In this document: piece after piece, positions 24,164 through 34,075 of the stretch
How the letters are laid out: each line of letters begins with the position of its first letter
Position numbering within the stretch: the first letter of the stretch is position 1
Assembly (NCBI GenBank): GCA_001770815.1
Contig: MESD01000006.1
Location: forward strand, 10,162 to 51,325
Direction: 5' to 3'
Length of the DNA stretch: 41,164 nucleotides
Origin: Burkholderiales bacterium RIFCSPHIGHO2_12_FULL_69_20
GTDB lineage: Bacteria; Pseudomonadota; Gammaproteobacteria; Burkholderiales; Burkholderiaceae_C
Position numbers and translations under genes: made by a program
Notes under the pieces: model-generated
Databases searched by the model: none
What the model was told of the DNA's origin: nothing
What the model saw: the letters and a program-made list of their open reading frames with translations, nothing else

Positions 24164-24180
24164 GTTAAGCCAGCCCTAAG
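24164..24180 (+). promoter_or_regulatory. PmrA/QseB-like direct-repeat box upstream of the cytochrome cluster
   Basis: GTTAAG-CCAGC-CCTAAG: two six-base half-sites separated by 5 nt, 34 nt before the first cytochrome gene. PmrA/QseB-type OmpR regulators recognise CTTAAG-like hexamers with this spacing; here each half differs from that by one base. A regulator of this type is encoded at the end of the same cluster. Function is inferred. Confidence 0.45.
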
Positions 24181-24214
24181 ACCGGGTGACGAACATGCTG
24201 ATCAAGGAGCTGCC

Positions 24215-24664
24215 ATGAACCCCCTCACCCGAACGACCACGCGCACCACCGCCCGCAATGCCGCCCACATCACCCGCGCCAGCGCCTTGCTGGCCGGTCT
24301 GGCCCTGCTGTCGGCCGGGCCCGCGGCCCACGCCGCCACGCCCGCCGAGCTGCTGGCCGGCTACACCGCCCAGGCCGGCGCACCGGCCCAGGCCGCGCGC
24401 GGCCAGCAGTTCTTCACCACCCGGCACGGTCGTGAATGGAGCTGCGCCAGCTGCCACGGCGCCACGCCCACGGCGGGCGGCAAGCATGCGTCGACCGGCA
24501 AGCCCATCGGCGCACTGGCGCCGGCGTTCAACCCCGAGCGCTTCACCAACCCGGCGAAGACCGAGAAGTGGTTCCGCCGCAACTGCAACGACGTGGCCGG
24601 CCGCGAATGCAGCAGCGCCGAGAAGGCCGACCTGCTGGCCTGGCTGATGACGCTCAAGCCCTGA
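24215..24664 (+). CDS. SHP-type oxygen-binding cytochrome c (DUF1924)
   Basis: 149 residues. A signal peptide ends near AHAA (about 41). A single haem c site, CASCH, is at 77-81. The C-terminal part RRNCNDVAGREC supplies an Asn (N123 or N125) in the region where sphaeroides haem protein (SHP) uses an Asn as displaceable sixth ligand, flanked by two cysteines (124, 132) that could form a disulfide. SHP proteins bind O2 and NO transiently and exchange electrons with a diheme cytochrome and a b-type cytochrome, both encoded next. A strong AAGGAG ribosome-binding site precedes the ATG. Confidence 0.85.
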   Translation: MNPLTRTTTRTTARNAAHITRASALLAGLALLSAGPAAHAATPAELLAGYTAQAGAPAQAARGQQFFTTRHGREWSCASCHGATPTAGGKHASTGKPIGALAPAFNPERFTNPAKTEKWFRRNCNDVAGRECSSAEKADLLAWLMTLKP

Positions 24665-24684
24665 CCCCCTGCCCAGGACACCCC

Positions 24685-25170
24685 ATGACCAACCCCCTGA
24701 CGATCCACCGCGGCGCCCTGCTGCTGGCGCTGTTGACCGGCGCGGCGCTGACCGCCCCGGCCCGTGCCGACAACCTGGCCGTGCCGCAGCTGCCGGCCTA
24801 TCAGCAGGAATGCGCGGCCTGCCACCTGGCCTATCCGCCGGGCCTGCTGCCCGCGGCATCGTGGCAGCGGCTGATGGCCAACCTGCCCAAACACTTCGGC
24901 ACCGATGCCTCGCTCGATGCCCCCACGCTGAAGACGCTGTCGGCCTTCCTGGCCGCCAACGCCGGCACTTACAAGAAGGTGGCGCGCGACCCCTCGCCGC
25001 CGCCCGACGACCGCATCAGCCAGTCGGCCTGGTTCGTGCGCGAGCACCGCGAGATCGACCGCGCCACCTGGCAGCGCAAATCGATAGCCAGCCCGGCCAA
25101 CTGCGCCGCCTGCCACACCGGCGCGGCGCAGGGCCGGTTCAGCGAGCGCGACCTGCGCATTCCGAAGTGA
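24685..25170 (+). CDS. Diheme cytochrome c (DHC type), partner of SHP
   Basis: 161 residues. The signal peptide is cleaved near ARA-DN (about 28). There are two haem c sites: CAACH at 43-47 and CAACH at 140-144, far apart as in the DHC family. The segment PAASWQRLMANLPKHFG is characteristic. It is a periplasmic electron carrier expected to reduce the SHP cytochrome and to receive electrons from the membrane cytochrome b that follows. Spacing to both neighbours is 20 nt or less, so it is operonic. Confidence 0.88.
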   Translation: MTNPLTIHRGALLLALLTGAALTAPARADNLAVPQLPAYQQECAACHLAYPPGLLPAASWQRLMANLPKHFGTDASLDAPTLKTLSAFLAANAGTYKKVARDPSPPPDDRISQSAWFVREHREIDRATWQRKSIASPANCAACHTGAAQGRFSERDLRIPK

Positions 25171-25189
25171 TGGTCTGCGCGAGAACAGC

Positions 25190-25918
25190 ATGACCCCGAA
25201 ACCCCTGCGACTGAAACCGAACATCCTGGTCTGGGACCTGCCCGTGCGGCTGTTCCACTGGCTGCTGGCGCTGAGTTTTGCCGGCGCCTGGATCACCGCC
25301 GAGAGCGAGCGCTGGCGCCTGCTGCACGTCACGCTGGGCTACACCCTGGGCGGGCTGCTGGCCTTCCGCGTGCTGTGGGGCCTGGTGGGCACGCGCCATG
25401 CACGCTTCAGCGATTTTGTGCGCGGCCCGCGTGCGGCGCTGCGCTACCTGGGTGGCCTGTTGCGCGGCCGGCCCGAGCCGCATGTGGGCCACAACCCGGC
25501 GGGCGCGCTGGCCATCGTGGCGCTGATGGCGCTGGGCGGCCTGATCGTGGCCAGCGGCTGGGCCAATTACAACGCGCTGGGCGGCGACCTGATGGAAGAG
25601 CTGCACGAAGCCCTGGCCAGCACCATGCTGACCGTGGTGGGCGTGCATGTGCTGGCGGTGATGATCAGCAGCCGCCTGCACCACGAGAACCTGGTCGGCG
25701 CCATGATCACCGGCCGCAAGCACGGCGCCCCCGGCGACGGCATCACCCAGGCCTGGCGCAGCGTGGCCGCGCTGATGCTGGTGGCGGTGATCGGCTTCTG
25801 GACCTGGCAGTGGCAGGGCGCGCCCCAGGCCGACATGGCCAGTGCCGAGGCCGGCGGCCCCGCCGTGCTGGCCCAGCAGCACGGCCGCCGGCACGGCGAT
25901 GACGACGACGACGACTGA
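25190..25918 (+). CDS. Cytochrome b561-type di-haem membrane protein
   Basis: 242 residues with about four membrane helices. Histidines placed as haem b ligands are in VRLFHWLLA (His23), LLHVTLGY, EELHEAL and VVGVHVLAV. The family segment GHNPAGALAI precedes the third helix. It probably passes quinol electrons to the periplasmic diheme cytochrome. The C-terminus is unusual: a soluble, His/Arg/Asp-rich tail that ends in six consecutive Asp residues. It is third in the SHP–DHC–cyt b order. Confidence 0.9.
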   Translation: MTPKPLRLKPNILVWDLPVRLFHWLLALSFAGAWITAESERWRLLHVTLGYTLGGLLAFRVLWGLVGTRHARFSDFVRGPRAALRYLGGLLRGRPEPHVGHNPAGALAIVALMALGGLIVASGWANYNALGGDLMEELHEALASTMLTVVGVHVLAVMISSRLHHENLVGAMITGRKHGAPGDGITQAWRSVAALMLVAVIGFWTWQWQGAPQADMASAEAGGPAVLAQQHGRRHGDDDDDD

Positions 25919-25984
25919 TCGGCACGCCCGCGCCGCCATCACGCCTCGTGCCTGGCACCCAACCCTTCTGCTTCCGAGTACCTC

Positions 25985-26299
25985 ATGACCCTTCATCCTT
26001 GCCTTGCACGCCTGGCCACGGCCGCCGTGCTGACCACTGCGGCGGCCTGTGCCGGCGCCCAGACCACCACGCCGCCCGCCGGCCGCCTGCTGGCGTCCAA
26101 CTGCTTCCAGTGCCACGGCACCAACGGCAAGGGCCCGGGCTTCGACACGCTGGCCGGCAAGTCGGCCACCAAGCTCTATGGCGAGCTGATCGAGTTCCGC
26201 AACGGCCAGGAGGGCAACGGCATCATGGCCAAACACGCGCTCGGCTACACCGATGCCCAGTTGCGCCAGCTGGCGCAATACCTGTCCACCGTGCGCTGA
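25985..26299 (+). CDS. fccA: Monohaem class I cytochrome c, FccA-like
   Basis: 104 residues. The signal peptide is within 1-26. The haem site CFQCH is at 40-44 with a likely axial Met81 (GNGIMAKHA). The pattern GTNGKGPGF-LAGKS-LYGELIEFRNG is that of the small cytochrome subunit of flavocytochrome c sulfide dehydrogenase. It has one haem, like the short green-sulfur-bacterial type, rather than two as in Allochromatium. It lies 13 nt before the flavoprotein subunit. No good Shine-Dalgarno is seen before the ATG. Confidence 0.85.
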   Translation: MTLHPCLARLATAAVLTTAAACAGAQTTTPPAGRLLASNCFQCHGTNGKGPGFDTLAGKSATKLYGELIEFRNGQEGNGIMAKHALGYTDAQLRQLAQYLSTVR

Positions 26300-26312
26300 G
26301 CAGGAGCCGACC

Positions 26313-27659
26313 ATGATCGATCGTCGATTCTTCCTGCGCCGCGCGGCGGCACTGGCCAGCCTGGGCAGCCTGGGTCTGGTCGCCTGCGGTGGTGGCGGCG
26401 GTGGGGGTGCGGACGACGGCAACGCCGCCGACCTGCCGACCGGCACCAGCACCTTGCCCGACAGCACCACGCTGGCCACGGCCCCCGCCAACCCCAAGGC
26501 CCGCGTGATCGTCATCGGCGGCGGCATGGCCGGCGCCACGGTGGCCAAGTACCTGCGGCTGTGGGGCGACGCGGTCGACGTGACCCTGGTCGAACGCCTG
26601 CCGGTCTACACCTCCTGCATCATGAGCAGCCTGGTGCTCACCGGCCAACGCAGCCTGGCCAGCCTGGACTACAACCACGACCAGCTGCGCAGCCGCTACG
26701 GCCTGAAGACCGTGTTCGACGAGGTCGTCGCCATCGACCCGGTGGCCCCCAGCGTGACGCTGGCCTCGGGCACCGTGCTGCGGGCCGACCGCATCGTGAT
26801 GGCGCCCGGCATCGACTTCGACGCGGTGCCCGGCCTGGGCGATCCGCTGCTGATGCCGCATGCCTGGAAGGCGGGCGCGCAGACCAGCCAGCTGGCCAGT
26901 CAACTGGCCGCGATGCCCGCCGGCGGCACCGCCGTGCTGACGATCCCGAAGGCGCCGTACCGCTGCCCACCCGGGCCCTATGAACGCGCCTGCCTGCTGG
27001 CCGACTGGCTGCGGGTGAACAAGCCGGGCAGCAAGCTGATCGTGCTGGATGCCAACCCGGGCATCGTCACCGAGGTCGACAACTTCAGCCGCGCCTTCTT
27101 CGATCTGCACGGCGGGGTGATCGAGTACCGCAGCAACGTGGTCATCGACCACGTCGACACCGCCACCCGCACGCTGCACACCGACACCGGCGCGCTGCGT
27201 GCGGACGTGGTCAACCTGATTCCGCCACAGCGCGCCGCCGCGCTGGCGGCCAGCAGCGGGCTGGTCAACGATGCCACCGGCCGGTTCGCCAAGGTGGACG
27301 TGCTCAGCTACGCCAGCACCGCCGCCCCCAAGGTGCATGTGATCGGCGATGCCAGCGCCACCACCCAGCCCAAGGCCGGGCACATCGCCAACCAGGAGGC
27401 CAAGGTGTGCGCCGATGCGCTGGTGCGCCTGTTCGGCGGCGGCAGCCCCGACGCGGCGCCGGTCACCACCTCGGCGTGTTATTCCACCATCACCATGAGC
27501 GAAGCCTCGTGGCTGCATTCGCTGTTCCAATACGACGCGGCCAGCGCCAGCATGCTGCCGGTGGCGTCGGCCACGGGCGCCTCGGCGGGCTGGGACCGCC
27601 GCTCGTTCCGCGAGATGGACGAGTGGTTCACCGCCTTGATGGCCGACACCTTTGCCTGA
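26313..27659 (+). CDS. fccB: Flavocytochrome c sulfide dehydrogenase, flavoprotein subunit
   Basis: 448 residues. It oxidises sulfide and passes electrons through FAD to FccA. Rossmann motif IGGGMAG is at 68-74. Cys102 in YTSCIMSS matches the cysteine that carries the covalent FAD. A second cysteine in APYRCPPGPYERA and a third in SACYST match the redox disulfide partners. NLIPPQRAA and HVIGDA are intact. The N-terminus has a twin-arginine motif (DRRFFLRR) and ends with a lipobox-like LVAC followed by seven glycines, so it may be a Tat-exported lipoprotein, which is unusual for this family. Confidence 0.9.
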   Translation: MIDRRFFLRRAAALASLGSLGLVACGGGGGGGADDGNAADLPTGTSTLPDSTTLATAPANPKARVIVIGGGMAGATVAKYLRLWGDAVDVTLVERLPVYTSCIMSSLVLTGQRSLASLDYNHDQLRSRYGLKTVFDEVVAIDPVAPSVTLASGTVLRADRIVMAPGIDFDAVPGLGDPLLMPHAWKAGAQTSQLASQLAAMPAGGTAVLTIPKAPYRCPPGPYERACLLADWLRVNKPGSKLIVLDANPGIVTEVDNFSRAFFDLHGGVIEYRSNVVIDHVDTATRTLHTDTGALRADVVNLIPPQRAAALAASSGLVNDATGRFAKVDVLSYASTAAPKVHVIGDASATTQPKAGHIANQEAKVCADALVRLFGGGSPDAAPVTTSACYSTITMSEASWLHSLFQYDAASASMLPVASATGASAGWDRRSFREMDEWFTALMADTFA

Positions 27660-27695
27660 CTGGCTTCATCGCACACCCGCACCCCGCCCACCCCC

Positions 27696-28367
27696 ATGCG
27701 CATCCTGCTGGCTGAAGACGACACCCTGCTCGGCGACGGCCTGCGCGCCGGGCTGCGGCAGGCCGGCTTCCAGGTCGACTGGGTGCGCGACGGCGCCGCC
27801 GCCGAGCGTGAACTGCGCGCCCAGCCCTATGCCGCCGCGGTGCTCGACCTGGGCCTGCCGCTGATGGACGGGCTGGACGTGCTGGCGTCGGTGCGCCGTG
27901 CCGGCACCACCGTGCCGGTGCTGGTGCTGACCGCCCGCGACGCCGTGCCCGACCGGGTGCGCGGGCTCGACCTCGGCGCCGACGATTACGTGGTCAAGCC
28001 GGTCGACCTGGACGAGCTGGCCGCGCGCCTGCGGGCGCTGGTGCGCCGCGCCCATGGCCAGCCGCAGGAGCAGCTGCAGGTGCAGGGCGTGCAGCTCGAT
28101 CCGGCCGCACGCACGGTGGCACGTGATGGCCAGGCCGTGGCGCTGTCCACGCGCGAGTTCGACCTGCTGCATGCGCTGATGCTCAACGCCGGGCGCGTGC
28201 TCTCGCGTGAGCAGCTGGAGCAGCACCTCTACAGCTGGGGCCGCGAGGTCGAGAGCAATGCGGTGGAGGTGCACATCCACCACCTGCGCAAGAAGCTGGG
28301 CGCCGAGCTGATCCAGACCGTGCGCGGCGTGGGCTACCTGTGCCCCAAGAGCGGCAGCGTGGCCTGA
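27696..28367 (+). CDS. OmpR-family response regulator, QseB/PmrA-like
   Basis: 223 residues. Receiver domain about 1-115 with acidic pocket EDD (7-9), phospho-acceptor Asp51 and Lys101. A winged-helix DNA-binding domain follows (about 125-220), with STREFDLLHALM and VEVHIHHLRKKLG. Length and style fit the QseB/PmrA/TctD group. It is 36 nt after fccB and overlaps the kinase gene (TGATG). It probably controls this cluster through the direct repeat at 24164-24180. Confidence 0.93.
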   Translation: MRILLAEDDTLLGDGLRAGLRQAGFQVDWVRDGAAAERELRAQPYAAAVLDLGLPLMDGLDVLASVRRAGTTVPVLVLTARDAVPDRVRGLDLGADDYVVKPVDLDELAARLRALVRRAHGQPQEQLQVQGVQLDPAARTVARDGQAVALSTREFDLLHALMLNAGRVLSREQLEQHLYSWGREVESNAVEVHIHHLRKKLGAELIQTVRGVGYLCPKSGSVA

Positions 28368-29845
28368 TGCGGGCGCTGCCATCGTCGCTGCAGGGCCGGC
28401 TGCTGGCCGGCGTGCTGGGGGCGGTGGTGCTGGTGTGGGGCGCCACCGCGGCCTTCACTTGGGTCGACGTGCAGCACGAGCTGGACGAACTGCTCGACGG
28501 CCACCTGGCCCAGGCCGCGGCCCTGCTGGTGGTGCAGCAGGCCAGCGCCGGTGACGACGACCGCCGCCTCGACGCACCGCAGCTGCACCGCTATGCCCCG
28601 CGCGTGGCCTTCCAGGTGTGGCACGAGGGCGTGCTGACGGTGCGGTCGGCCAATGCGCCCGGCACGCCGATGGTGGCGATCGATCCGAAGACCGCCCGCA
28701 GCGGCAAGGCCACGCGGGAGCAGGACGACGATGACGACGAACACGACCCCGCGCACCGCAGCCCGGCGGCCCCCGCCGCCTTCGGCCTGGGCTTTTACGA
28801 CGCGCAGATCGCCGGCACGGCGTGGCGCGTGTTCGTGGCCCAGGGGGCCGAGCGCGACGTGCAGGTGTTCGTGGGCGAGCAGGCGGTGTCGCGCCACGAC
28901 ATCCTGTGGGCCGTGCTGCGCGGCACGCTGTGGCCGCTGGCGCTGGCCTTGCCGCTGCTGGCGCTGCTGATCTGGTGGGCGGTGCGCCAGGGCACCGCGC
29001 CGCTGCGGGCGCTGGGCCAGGCCCTGGCCGCGCGCGATGCCCAGGCGCTGGGCCCGGTGACGCTGCCCGACGTGCCGGCCGAGATGGCGCCGATGCTGGA
29101 CGCGCTGAACCAGCTGTTCGGCCGCATCACCACGATGGTGGCCGCCGAGCGGCGCTTCACCGCCGACGCGGCGCACGAACTGCGCACGCCGATCGCCGCC
29201 ATCCGCGCCCAGGCCCAGGTGGCCCTGGCCGAGCGCGACGAGGCCGAGCGCAGCCATGCCCTGCGCGCCACGCTGGCCGGCTGCGACCGCGCCACGCACC
29301 TGGTCGAACAACTGCTGATGTTGTCGCGGCTGGAGGCCGGTGACACGGCCGCCAACGGCGCCTCGAATGCGCCCCCCACCAGCCCGGTCGACCTGGGCGC
29401 GCTGGCGCAGCGCGTGGCCGCCGAACTGGCCCCACGCGCCGTCGAGCGCCGGCAGACGCTGGGTCTGGACGCCGCCCCCGGCTGCACGGTGGCGGGCCAC
29501 CCGGCGCTGCTGGCCGTGCTGCTGCGCAACCTGATCGACAACGCGCTGCGCTACAGCCCCGATGGCGCCGAGGTGCGGCTGGCGGTGGCCATCACCGGCG
29601 GCCAGGTGCGCCTGCAGGTCGACGACAGCGGCCCCGGCCTGGCCGACGCCGATCGGCAGCGCCTGGGCGAACGCTTCTTCCGCGTGCTGGGCAGCGGGCA
29701 GGAGGGCAGCGGCCTGGGCTGGTCGATCGTGCGGCGCATCGCCGCCGCGCAGGGCGCGGTGGTCGAGGTGGCCCGATCGGCCGCGCTGGGCGGGCTGGCG
29801 GTGGTGGTGCGCTGGCCGCTGGCCGCCGCCGATCCCGTGCGCTAA
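28367..29845 (+). CDS. Sensor histidine kinase, QseC-like
   Basis: 492 residues. TM1 is about 11-31, the periplasmic sensor about 35-180, and TM2 about 183-205. The H-box RFTADAAHELRTPIAAIRAQ has His270, followed by N-box NLIDNALRYSP, G1 DDSGPGL and G2 GSGLGWSIV. No clear HAMP domain is seen beyond a short PLRAL linker. The periplasmic loop has a run of five Asp at 120-124 followed by EHD-x-x-H, which could bind a metal or a cationic signal. Its partner is the overlapping upstream response regulator. Confidence 0.93.
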   Translation: MRALPSSLQGRLLAGVLGAVVLVWGATAAFTWVDVQHELDELLDGHLAQAAALLVVQQASAGDDDRRLDAPQLHRYAPRVAFQVWHEGVLTVRSANAPGTPMVAIDPKTARSGKATREQDDDDDEHDPAHRSPAAPAAFGLGFYDAQIAGTAWRVFVAQGAERDVQVFVGEQAVSRHDILWAVLRGTLWPLALALPLLALLIWWAVRQGTAPLRALGQALAARDAQALGPVTLPDVPAEMAPMLDALNQLFGRITTMVAAERRFTADAAHELRTPIAAIRAQAQVALAERDEAERSHALRATLAGCDRATHLVEQLLMLSRLEAGDTAANGASNAPPTSPVDLGALAQRVAAELAPRAVERRQTLGLDAAPGCTVAGHPALLAVLLRNLIDNALRYSPDGAEVRLAVAITGGQVRLQVDDSGPGLADADRQRLGERFFRVLGSGQEGSGLGWSIVRRIAAAQGAVVEVARSAALGGLAVVVRWPLAAADPVR

Positions 29846-29911: not shown

Positions 29912-29937
29912 CATCGTTCCACCATAATGAAACGATG
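29912..29937. promoter_or_regulatory. Candidate ArsR operator and -10 element overlapping the arsR start
   Basis: The arms CATCGTT (29912-29918) and AACGATG (29931-29937) form a 7-bp inverted repeat whose right arm contains the arsR start codon. Between them lies CATAAT (29923-29928), a good -10 hexamer. Transcription from it would begin about at the ATG, and there is no Shine-Dalgarno, so the mRNA may be leaderless. The -35 is weak. Confidence 0.5.
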
Positions 29938-30270
29938 GAAGAAAAAGCCGCTGTCGCCGCGCTGGCCGCCCTGGCCCAGGGCATGCGCCTGCGCATCTTC
30001 CGGGCGCTGGTGGGTGCCGGGCCGCAGGGCCTGACGCCAGGGGCGCTGACCACCACGCTGGACGTGCCGGCCTCCACGCTGTCGTTTCACCTGAAGGAGC
30101 TGGTGACCTCGGGCCTGGTGTCGCAGGAGCGTGACGGCCGCCACCTGATCTACCGCCCCGCGCTGGGCCAGATGAACGCGCTGCTCGACTACCTCAGCGC
30201 CCACTGCTGCCAGGGCGCCCCCTGCGAGGTGCCGCCACCCGGGCGCTGCGCCGACGGCCGGGTCTGCTGA
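29935..30270 (+). CDS. arsR: ArsR-family arsenic-responsive repressor
   Basis: 111 residues, one winged-helix domain. The recognition helix region is [20 protein letters not shown], with the wing [11 protein letters not shown]. The classic ELCVCDL metal motif in the recognition helix is absent. Instead, cysteines are clustered at the C-terminus: Cys91, Cys92 and Cys97 (HCCQGAPC), plus Cys104 and Cys111. This resembles ArsR variants that bind As(III) through a C-terminal three-Cys site. It overlaps the exporter gene by one base (TGATG). Confidence 0.92.
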
Positions 30271-31289
30271 TGGGCTTGTTCGAACGCTGGCTCACCGTCT
30301 GGGTGGGGCTGGGCATCCTGGCCGGTGTGGTGCTGGGGCTGGTGGTGCCGGGGCTGTTCCAGGCGATCGCGGCGGTGGAGTTTGCCCACGTCAACCTGAT
30401 CGTCGCGCTGTTCATCTGGGTGATGATCTACCCGATGATGATCCAGATCGACTTCGCCTCGATCAAGGACGTCGGCCGGCGGCCCAAGGGCCTGGTGCTC
30501 ACGCTGGTGATCAACTGGCTGGTCAAGCCCTTCACGATGGCGGCGCTGGCGGTGCTGTTCTTCCAGCACCTGTTCGCGCCCTGGGTCGACCCGCAATCGG
30601 CCAGCGAATACATCGCCGGCATGATCCTGCTGGGCGTGGCGCCCTGCACCGCGATGGTCTTCGTCTGGAGCCAGCTGACCCGCGGCGATCCGGCCTACAC
30701 GCTGGTGCAGGTGTCGGTGAACGACCTGATCATGGTGTTTGCCTTTGCGCCGATCGCCGCCTTCCTGCTGGGCGTCACCGATGTCAGCGTGCCCTGGCAG
30801 ACGCTGGTGCTGGCCACCGTGCTCTACGTGGTGCTGCCGCTGGCGGCGGGGGTGCTCACCCGCCGGCGCTGGCTGCGTGCCGGCGGCGCGCAAAGGGTGG
30901 CGCGCGGTGTGGCCGCGCTCAAGCCGTGGTCGGTGGTCGGGCTGATCGCCACCGTGGTGCTGCTGTTCGGCTTCCAGGCTGAAACCCTGGTGGCCCAGCC
31001 GCTGGTGATCGTGCTGATCGCCGTGCCGCTGGTGCTGCAGAGCTACGGCATCTTCGCCATCACCTTCGTCGCCGCGCTGCGGCTGAAGTTGCCGCACAAC
31101 ATCGCCGCACCGGCCTGCCTGATCGGCACCTCCAACTTCTTCGAGCTGGCGGTGGCCGTGGCCATCTCGCTGTTCGGCCTGCACTCGGGCGCGGCCTTGG
31201 CCACGGTGGTGGGCGTGCTGGTCGAGGTGCCGGTGATGCTGTCGCTGGTGGCCATTGCCAACCGCACACGGCACTGGTTTGCCGCATGA
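30270..31289 (+). CDS. acr3: ACR3-family arsenite efflux permease
   Basis: 339 residues with ten predicted membrane helices. The key thiol Cys126 is in [16 protein letters not shown], and the conserved acidic residue is in [18 protein letters not shown]. It exports As(OH)3 driven by the proton motive force. It overlaps arsR upstream and the MFS gene downstream (ATGA). Some annotations call this protein ArsB, but it is unrelated in sequence to the E. coli ArsB. Confidence 0.95.
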
Positions 31290-32551
31290 CCATCACCGCC
31301 CAACCCGCCCTGCCCGCCGGTGCGCCAACGCGGCAGGTGATCACGCTGGGGCTGGCGCAGACGCTGTCGTGGGCCTCGTCGTTCTACCTGCCCGCGGTGC
31401 TGGCCACGGTGATGGCGCGGGATCTGGGCCTGGCCATGCCCACGGTGTACCTGGCGTTCTCGCTGGCGCTGGTGGTCTCGGCCGCGGTGGGGCCGGCGGC
31501 GGGCCGGGCCATCGACCGGCGCGGCGGCCGCCCGGTGCTGATGGCCTCGAATGTCGTGTTTGCGCTGGGCCTGGTGCTGCTGGCCATGGCCCAGGGACCG
31601 GTCACGCTGTTTGCCGCCTGGGCGGTGCTGGGCGTGGCCATGGGCGGCGGGCTGTACGAGGCGGCGTTTGCCACGCTGGTGCGGCAACACGGCCCGGGCG
31701 CCCGCAATGCCATCACCGGCATCACCTTGATCGCCGGCTTTGCCAGCACCGTGGGCTGGCCATTGACGGCCTGGCTGGAGACGCAGATCGGCTGGCGCGG
31801 CGCCTGCCTGGTCTGGGCCGGGCTGCACGCCGTGCTGGGCCTGCCGCTGAACGCGCTGCTGCCGCGCTGGGCTGCGGGCGAGCCTGCCGGGACCACGCAG
31901 CTGCCGGCCGGGCCGACGTCGGCCGGGGCGTCCACACCGCCACCCGACAGGTCATCCGGCACGTCATCCAAAACGTCGCCCGCACCGGCGCATCCGGCGA
32001 GGCTGGCGGTGCTGATGAGCGTCTTCTTCGCCGTCAGCATGTTCGTCGGCACGGCGATGGCCACCCACCTGCCGCAGTTGCTGCAGGCCAGCGGCGCCAC
32101 GCTGGCGGTGGCCATCGGCGTGGGTGCGCTGGTGGGGCCGTCGCAGGTGGCCGGGCGGCTGCTGGAGTTCGGCCTGCTGCGGCGCGTGCACCCGCTGCTG
32201 TCGGCGCGGCTGTCGGCACTGGCGCATCCGGCAGGCATCGCGGCGCTGCTGGTGCTGGGCGCGCCGGCCGCGGCGTTGTTTGCGGTGCTGCACGGCGCGG
32301 GCAATGGCATCCTCACCATCGCCAAGGGCACGTTGCCGTTGGTGTTGTTCGGTGCACGTGGCTACGGCGCACGGCAGGGCTGGCTGATGATGCCGGCACG
32401 CGTGGCGCAGGCCAGCGCGCCGTTTGCCTTCGGGCTGGCGCTGGACGCCTGGGGCGCGCGCGCGCTGTGGCTGTCGGGCGCGCTGGGGCTGCTGGCTTTC
32501 GCGGCGCTGATGGCCATGCCGCAGGTCTCGCGCCAGGCGCCACCGGCCTGA
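31286..32551 (+). CDS. MFS transporter in the ars operon
   Basis: 421 residues with twelve predicted membrane helices. The MFS loop 2-3 motif is [14 protein letters not shown]. The central loop between the halves is a Pro/Ser/Thr-rich linker of about 40 residues ([13 protein letters not shown] to [10 protein letters not shown]). The start overlaps the acr3 stop. Related transporters occur in betaproteobacterial ars operons, but it does not look like ArsJ (no ArsJ N-terminal pattern and no adjacent GAPDH gene). The substrate is unknown. Confidence 0.85.
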
Positions 32552-33151: not shown

Positions 33152-34075
33152 ATGACCGCGTGGACGAAGACCCTGACCTGGCTGCTGTGGTTGCTGCCGC
33201 TGGCCGCCCCTGCGGTGGAAGTGACGTTCCGGCCCGTGGCCGACGGCGTGTACGCCTTCGTCGGCGAGACCGGCGCGCGCAGCCCGCGCAACGAAGGCCT
33301 CAACGCCAACCTCGGGCTGGTGGTGACGCCTGCCGGCGCGGTGCTGATCGACAGCGGCGCCACCTTCCAGGGCGCGCGGCAGATCCACGAGGCGGTGCGG
33401 CGGATCACCCCGCAGCCGGTGAGGTGGGTCATCAACACCGGCGGGCAAGACCACCGCTGGCTGGGCAACGGCTACTTCCAGGCGCAAGGTGCCGAGCTGA
33501 TCGCCCATGCCGCCGGGCAGGCCGACATGGCCAATCGCGGCAACGACCACCTGCTGGCGCTGCGTGCCGCGCTCGGGCCGCTGGCCGATGGCACCGTGCC
33601 CACCTTGCCCACCCGCTGGCTGGCCGGGCCCGACGAGCCGCTGATGCTGGGCGGCGTGGTGTTTCAGTTCAAGCACCGCGGCGGCGCCCACACGCCGGGC
33701 GATCTGCTGGTGTGGCTGCCGCAGCAGCGGGTGCTGTTTGCCGGTGACACGGTCTACGTCGACCGGATGCTGGGCGTGCTGCCGGTCAGCCACACCGGGC
33801 GGTGGCTGAAGACCTTCGAGGTCATCGAGCAGCTCGACCCACAGGTGCTGGTGCCCGGCCACGGCGCGGTGACCAACCTGGCCACTGCACGCGCCGACAC
33901 CCTGGCCTACCTGCAGGCTCTGCGTGCCCACATGAAGCAGGCGGTGGACAACGGCACCGACATCAGCGCGGCCGTCAAGTCCTTCAACACCGCGCCCTTC
34001 CTGCGGCTGCTCAATGCCGCCGAGCTGATGCCCGGCAATGCCAGCCGCACCTACCTCGAACTCGAACGCGAGTAG
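33152..34075 (+). CDS. Exported metallo-beta-lactamase-fold protein with altered metal motif
   Basis: 307 residues with a signal peptide (about 1-21). The MBL fold is clear: VLIDSGAT (65-71), then NTGGQDHRWLGN (95-106) where the family normally has NT-HxHxDH-xxGN, then HRGGAHTPGD (His180), LFAGDTVY (Asp199) and VPGHGAV (His237). Thus the site-1 histidines are replaced by Gly and Gln, although a shifted Asp100-His101 remains. The order resembles quinoprotein-relay and sulfur-linked MBL proteins. The substrate is unknown. It is cotranscribed with the TlpA-like gene. Confidence 0.82.
   Translation: MTAWTKTLTWLLWLLPLAAPAVEVTFRPVADGVYAFVGETGARSPRNEGLNANLGLVVTPAGAVLIDSGATFQGARQIHEAVRRITPQPVRWVINTGGQDHRWLGNGYFQAQGAELIAHAAGQADMANRGNDHLLALRAALGPLADGTVPTLPTRWLAGPDEPLMLGGVVFQFKHRGGAHTPGDLLVWLPQQRVLFAGDTVYVDRMLGVLPVSHTGRWLKTFEVIEQLDPQVLVPGHGAVTNLATARADTLAYLQALRAHMKQAVDNGTDISAAVKSFNTAPFLRLLNAAELMPGNASRTYLELERE

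Follow-up and report, generated by a model that had tools for sequence, protein, structure and literature searches.

In flavocytochrome c sulfide dehydrogenase (FCSD, encoded by fccAB), electrons from sulfide or related species go onto the heme of FccA. The enzyme is represented in the Protein Data Bank (PDB) by 1fcd, 3vrd and 5n1t, which we take to come from A. vinosum, T. tepidum and T. paradoxus, respectively. The Sphaeroides heme protein (SHP) has been described as the sole c-type heme protein known to bind oxygen, with a role still to be settled; it is encoded in an operon with a diheme cytochrome c (DHC), a cytochrome b and one of three sensor types, of which SK2 is QseC-like and has 12 examples (Meyer et al. 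2010, PMC2909971, in its available text). Here, we analysed a stretch of 41,164 nucleotides from Burkholderiales bacterium RIFCSPHIGHO2_12_FULL_69_20 (the window), in which an SHP operon contains an fccAB pair. We read it as an SHP operon under the control of a QseB/QseC-like pair, into which fccAB genes from its own regulon have recently been taken up, and we consider this mechanism, taken whole, to be evenly balanced between right and wrong. The SHP-SK2 operon and FCSD are known systems; their fusion, its recurrence in other lineages, the shared upstream box and the FccB clade described below were not found in the open-access literature, where we found no report joining SHP to a flavocytochrome or flavocytochrome c to QseC (subscription SHP papers lay outside this search).

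A seven-gene SHP operon containing fccAB

The window carries a plus-strand run of seven genes at 24215-29845, with a box in front:

24165..24180, plus strand: TTAAG-N6-CTAAG direct repeat, predicted QseB-like regulator box, 34 bp 5′ of the SHP start codon
24215..24664, plus strand: SHP (DUF1924), monoheme cytochrome c (PF09086, PDB 1dw0)
24685..25170, plus strand: DHC, diheme cytochrome c (PF09626 133 bits, two CXXCH)
25190..25918, plus strand: cytochrome b561-type membrane protein (PF01292 94 bits)
25985..26299, plus strand: fccA-like gene for a monoheme cytochrome c, with which the insert opens (PF00034, one CXXCH)
26313..27659, plus strand: fccB, FCSD flavoprotein subunit (PF21706, PF09242; PDB 5n1t/3vrd/1fcd)
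27696..28367, plus strand: OmpR-type response regulator, QseB/PmrA-like (PF00072 and PF00486; best NCBIfam model QseB, under its cut-off)
28367..29845, plus strand: QseC-like sensor histidine kinase (PF00512 and PF02518; best NCBIfam model QseC, under its cut-off)

The gaps along the run are 20, 19, 66, 13, 36 and -1 bp. A sequence-only reading of this DNA had placed SHP, DHC, cytochrome b, FccA, FccB and two-component genes on one strand within 24164-29845, and all of them are there; it had counted both six and seven genes, of which seven is right. Its description of SHP, DHC and cytochrome b as a known trio agrees with Meyer et al., who published them with a QseC-like sensor in 2010 (PMC2909971).

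The window SHP matched PF09086 with 125 bits (cut-off 22.5) and has the single CXXCH of a DUF1924 monoheme protein. It matched PDB 1dw0 from R. sphaeroides with E 9e-31; the alignment sets window RNCNDVAGREC opposite RNCNSVIGRDC, such that the equivalents of Asn88, presumably the sixth heme ligand, and of Cys89 and Cys97 are conserved. These two cysteines form a disulfide in SHP (PMC2909971). With SHP, DHC, cytochrome b and a QseC-like kinase plus regulator in one cluster, the window has the composition of an SK2-type operon. The words "sulfide" and "flavocytochrome" are absent from the main text of that paper, and its available description of the SK2 operon has no regulator box, whereas the window has one. 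The five genes other than fccAB are the published operon type, while fccAB inside it falls outside the description in the available text.

Like the FCSD of 1fcd, 3vrd and 5n1t, the window pair has the FCSD domains, both redox cysteines and a cysteine at the position that binds flavin adenine dinucleotide (FAD) covalently. Unlike them, the window FccA is monoheme, as its single CXXCH indicates, and the window FccB lies in a clade, here called the N clade, with mostly Asn or Ser at the covalent-FAD site. The regulator and kinase share with E. coli QseB/QseC and PmrA/PmrB the OmpR-type regulator and the closest NCBIfam models; they differ in falling under the curated cut-offs (regulator 267 bits against 345 for QseB, kinase 272 against 475 for QseC) and in their target genes. 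The two-component pair is therefore classed as QseBC-like, in line with the sequence-only reading, and not as QseB/QseC proper. Scanning the run for promoters and terminators gave no match, an outcome that carries no weight.

Recent insertion of fccAB

In the order sample, SHP (PF09086) is present in 107/399 genomes. We read 25 Burkholderiales SHP loci, up to about 9 kb per side, chosen among the genomes with SHP in the family and order samples; 15 of them have the order SHP-DHC-cytochrome b-regulator-kinase with the same type of regulator. In the window, fccAB separates cytochrome b from the regulator. In the closest relative within the genus (L336), the DNA is 90% identical from SHP through cytochrome b and 92% identical in the regulator and the first part of the kinase, where the contig of L336 ends, and cytochrome b adjoins the regulator with no gene between. 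The insertion of fccAB into the SHP operon of the window is recent, since L336 and seven further genus loci have the empty site. The expectation that the seven-gene order would be conserved in Burkholderiales thus failed, with fccAB inside 0/25 SHP loci and 0/8 loci of the same genus (locus L125 is counted in both sets).

Three genus members carry fccAB elsewhere in the genome; their FccB proteins share 64-69% identity with that of the window. A second N-clade pair is present in the window genome, apparently split over two contig ends (L118, G000:C161; L347, G000:C2); its FccB pieces are 63% and 71% and its FccA is 75% identical to the window pair. The window genome also carries a canonical fccAB pair. 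In the inserted genes both frames are open and three cysteines are kept, and the G+C content at third codon positions (GC3) is 0.89 and 0.92 compared to 0.92-0.95 in the neighbours.

The pairing recurs in distant lineages

A genome scan across GTDB with an FccB alignment gave at least 79 loci, in four of which SHP lies near fccAB (L153, L142, L145, L146). In a Ca. Thiosymbion metagenome-assembled genome (MAG; L153), the order is SHP-DHC-cytochrome b-fccA-fccB-regulator-kinase, which is that of the window, with six of the seven genes called by Pfam and the kinase by tblastn; some hundreds of bases separate its cytochrome b and fccA genes, more than in the window. In the three Thiothrix loci (L142, L145, L146), fccAB lies 5′ or 3′ of the five-gene set, or on both sides. 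Partial links were regulator-kinase-fccAB in L135, cytochrome b together with fccAB in both L140 and L151, and, in L147, cytochrome b at a distance.

In the Thiothrix family, a further 20 of 22 strong SHP places were read, with 6/20 stretches cut by contig ends, and fccB was found within about 9 kb of SHP in 9/20. It stands directly 5′ of SHP in L227 and L230, and 1.2 to 2.5 kb from SHP in L226, L232, L234, L236 and L239; L235 has one fccAB pair directly after cytochrome b and another 1.7 kb before SHP, and in L243 the distance is 4.5 kb with fccB on the opposite strand. Together with L142, L145 and L146, fccAB is beside or near SHP in 12/23 loci of this family. In the order of the L153 genome, a canonical fccB lies 8 kb from SHP in 1/60 loci (about half of the SHP places listed). 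Within the GTDB scan, SHP was within reach in 4/25 of the first loci compared to 0/54 of the rest (Fisher 0.008, with the cut at 25 set after the result).

Chance adjacency had been the first working view, as among the matches listed for the family and order samples the two were paired within 10 kb only in the window genome; the wider scan overturned it. Because the window order recurs in L153, fccAB is near SHP in 12/23 Thiothrix-family loci and the FccB lineages are separate, a pairing by chance is unlikely. The suggestion of the sequence-only reading that FccAB and the SHP module belong together is upheld by this recurrence and by the box common to SHP operons and some unlinked fccAB.

In several SHP operons (L142, L145, L227, L092, L093), little seems to remain of the kinase's periplasmic sensor region, with start codons assigned by rule, so the signal that is sensed may differ.

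Relationships of the window FccB

The window FccB matched FCSD_central (PF21706, 114 bits) and PF09242 (32 bits), both above cut-off, and PDB 5n1t, 3vrd and 1fcd with E 3e-76 to 1e-69. In A. vinosum FCSD, Cys161 and Cys337 are the redox pair and Cys42 holds the covalent FAD (PMC3504083, PMC12010331, in the available text). Opposite these stand Cys218 and Cys389, and Cys102, of the window protein. In a FastTree phylogeny of 107 FccB sequences (two short ones dropped), the N clade has a local support of 0.97. Its covalent-FAD position is Asn or Ser (for example in L111-L118, L120-L123, L132, L134, L135, L137 and L153) except in the window and L133, which have Cys, and both redox cysteines are retained wherever the sequence covers them. 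Asn or Ser was also seen at this site in the Bacteroidota MAGs L143, L148 and L149, which lie in the N clade.

Within the clade, SHP-linked FccB occupies three separate places, namely the window, L153 and the downstream copies of Thiothrix; the upstream Thiothrix copies make up a fourth group, whose covalent-FAD position is occupied by Pro or Cys. The number of independent linkage events is uncertain, because several inner branches are weakly supported. The closest plasmid-borne FccB relatives are at most 41% identical (among the matches listed), and SHP places occur on 13 plasmids.

Read by eye, the window FccB (26313-27659) begins with a Tat-like signal ending in a lipobox-like LVAC, followed by a Gly-rich stretch, and the same features are seen in its nearest relatives (L131-L134, L154). 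This suggests that these proteins are membrane-anchored lipoproteins. A lipobox-like motif is also present, again by eye, in several canonical FccB, for example L119.

A box upstream of SHP and of some unlinked fccAB

The box of the window, TTAAGCCAGCCCTAAG, lies at 24165-24180; the sequence-only reading began its interval one base before, at 24164, and leaves the box unmentioned. Its 11-bp-spaced TTAAG repeats resemble what we take to be the PmrA box. The pattern YTAAG-N6-YTAAG was found within 400 bp 5′ of the SHP match in 19/29 places with a regulator at least 58% identical downstream compared to 0/82 others (Fisher 2e-14, where related genomes are not independent and the pattern was framed after viewing the window). 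The short loci L210-L224 were excluded here; among them, L224 carries the box although no regulator is visible in its short stretch.

A score matrix built from 22 SHP boxes was run on 102 fccA upstream regions. Sites scoring at least 15 were found before fccA in 7/29 N-clade copies outside SHP operons and in 0/55 others (Fisher 3e-4). These seven top scores are L116, L115, L120, L114, L131, L132 and L133, of which L114-L116 come from one genus; a Cys-type copy (L162) scored just under the threshold. The 18 regions outside that test (the window, L135, L153 and 15 near-SHP copies of Thiothrix relatives) were all under threshold.

At the level of whole genomes, the exact box is rare. G479 and G451 each have three, one each in front of SHP, fccAB and a further cytochrome c gene. 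In G358, it precedes fccAB, SHP and a SCO1-like gene (by eye) and occurs in one other place, and G504 has it before fccAB and a DegP-like gene (by eye). In R. gelatinosus (G546), the exact box is at SHP only and the fccA site differs by one change; in G297, 3/4 exact sites are inside the SHP promoter; in the window genome, the SHP run and one other QseB/PmrA-like pair are preceded by the box. Per genome, boxes were no more numerous than matches to a reversed-pattern control (1-5 compared to 2-26), and the box evidence rests on site placement, not on site number. The further cytochrome c gene of G451 and G479 (L311, L322; called by Pfam), with the box just 5′ in reverse orientation, is a possible third target.

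Published expression data

In A. vinosum grown on pyrite compared to dissolved sulfide, the log2 changes were +7.45 for FccA, +7.10 for a DUF1924 protein (Alvin_0022), +6.18 for FccB, +5.54 for a diheme cytochrome c and +5.13 for a cytochrome b561, and these are five of the eight strongest pyrite genes listed (PMC11267869, in the available text). We infer that Alvin_0022 is SHP, because it is a DUF1924 protein and Meyer et al. describe an SHP cluster in A. vinosum; the table itself does not name SHP. By locus number, Alvin_1092-1093 and Alvin_0020-0025 are unlinked, whereas in the window their counterparts are linked, and the A. vinosum SHP has the SK1 sensor type (PMC2909971) compared to SK2 in the window. 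In their available parts, these data agree in part with a link between SHP and FccAB.

Neighbouring genes

Directly 3′ of the kinase and on the same strand (29935-32551) lie arsR, an ACR3 arsenite efflux gene and a gene for an ArsK-like transporter, the last under cut-off. At 33152-34075 is a protein like the SoxH-related quinoprotein relay zinc metallohydrolases, under the curated cut-off. Poly-Asp and His-rich stretches, possibly metal-binding, were seen at the C-terminus of cytochrome b (25190-25918) and in the sensor region of the kinase (28367-29845).

Proposed pathway and alternatives

In the mechanism that we propose, the QseB-like regulator would respond to an envelope signal, bind the predicted TTAAG-N6-YTAAG box at 24165-24180 and turn on the whole run, SHP and FccAB together; the attached pair plausibly controls the operon. 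As judged from its family and conserved cysteines, FccAB would oxidise periplasmic sulfide or a related persulfide or thiol and reduce its own heme c, and its electrons would enter, by way of FccA, a c-type cytochrome pool common with DHC. DHC would be fed by quinol via cytochrome b561, and perhaps by FccA, and would reduce SHP. Following published proposals, reduced SHP would bind O2 or NO and either remove it or act as an oxygenase. We read the SHP module and fccAB as one regulon and probably one periplasmic redox pathway. More tentative, and on the whole unlikely, is the full claim that SHP, DHC, cytochrome b561 and N-clade FccAB form one periplasmic pathway, in which electrons from sulfide or persulfide power a c-type heme protein that consumes O2 or NO. 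On this view, the QseB-like regulator and the TTAAG box would link the parts in beta- and gammaproteobacteria alike, both where the genes are neighbours and where they are not.

Several observations weigh against this reading. The 25 Burkholderiales loci lack fccB within the stretches read, and the insert is absent at the matching site in 8/8 genus loci (20 other genus genomes were searched). The exact box stands 5′ of SHP in only 2/6 genus loci with enough upstream sequence (L336, L345), and not before SHP in L125, L341, L342 or L343, nor in G504. Among N-clade fccA upstream regions, 22/29 are under threshold, including that of the window genome's own paralog, and no separate box precedes the fccA genes that lie within or next to an SHP run; other QseB/PmrA-like regulator genes bear the box (window genome, G114). 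In the order sample, SHP was found in 10/12 genomes with N-clade FccB and in 97/387 others (N-clade typing being limited to the best 30 FccB matches), whereas in the named set the counts were 13/21 N-clade genomes and 23/41 genomes in which that scan found other FccB (Fisher 0.79, not significant); because the difference vanished there, co-occurrence is not used as support. In A. vinosum, the SHP genes went down and FccA slightly up on elemental sulfur, and metal efflux genes also rose on pyrite with SHP and FccAB (PMC11267869, in the available text).

A possible alternative, somewhat less likely than shared electrons and short of even probability, is that one envelope sensor switches on two distinct protective systems, FccAB and SHP-DHC-cytochrome b, with FccAB clearing sulfide to the ordinary cytochrome c pool and SHP acting on O2 or NO with electrons from quinol. 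The common box ties regulation only, the two units are unlinked in most genomes seen, and the other box-adjacent genes (cytochrome c, and by eye SCO1-like and DegP-like) are a mixed envelope set. Yet fccAB is repeatedly placed inside or beside the cytochrome genes, and SHP-DHC-cytochrome b is already viewed as an electron chain (PMC2909971). Less probable by far is a metal or oxyanion stress unit, in which the sensor detects metals and SHP and FccAB guard the periplasm from metal-sulfur or redox damage and do not handle O2 or NO. It is consistent with the arsR-acr3-ArsK-like run after the kinase, the acidic stretches in the kinase and the cytochrome b tail, and the A. vinosum efflux genes that adjoin SHP and rise with it on pyrite (PMC11267869); against it, the window arsR and acr3 have no match in the 25 Burkholderiales SHP loci read, and in some SHP operons the kinase seems to have almost no sensor region (start codons by rule). 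That fccAB landed by chance in the SHP operon of the window species alone and was merely carried along is the least probable explanation, since the recent event, the empty site in 8/8 genus loci, the second same-clade pair and a draft assembly of 219 contigs fit it, but the recurrence in Ca. Thiosymbion and Thiothrix relatives weakens it, and the box shared with unlinked fccAB loci, the open frames, the three cysteines and the GC3 of the insert argue against it.

Meaning for SHP and fccAB

Taken together, the comparisons describe the predicted SHP-fccAB partnership as a known gene set with an added, putatively sulfide-oxidising gene pair that recurs in distant bacteria. A survey of Thioalkalivibrio reports, in its available text, that the gene neighbourhood of fccAB lacks conservation across the sulfur oxidisers in its comparison (PMC6382920), and the SHP linkage bears on this neighbourhood question. 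For SHP, the repeated physical link and the shared upstream box with a sulfide dehydrogenase are a concrete lead to sulfur chemistry, and they suggest that sulfide chemistry may be part of its role.

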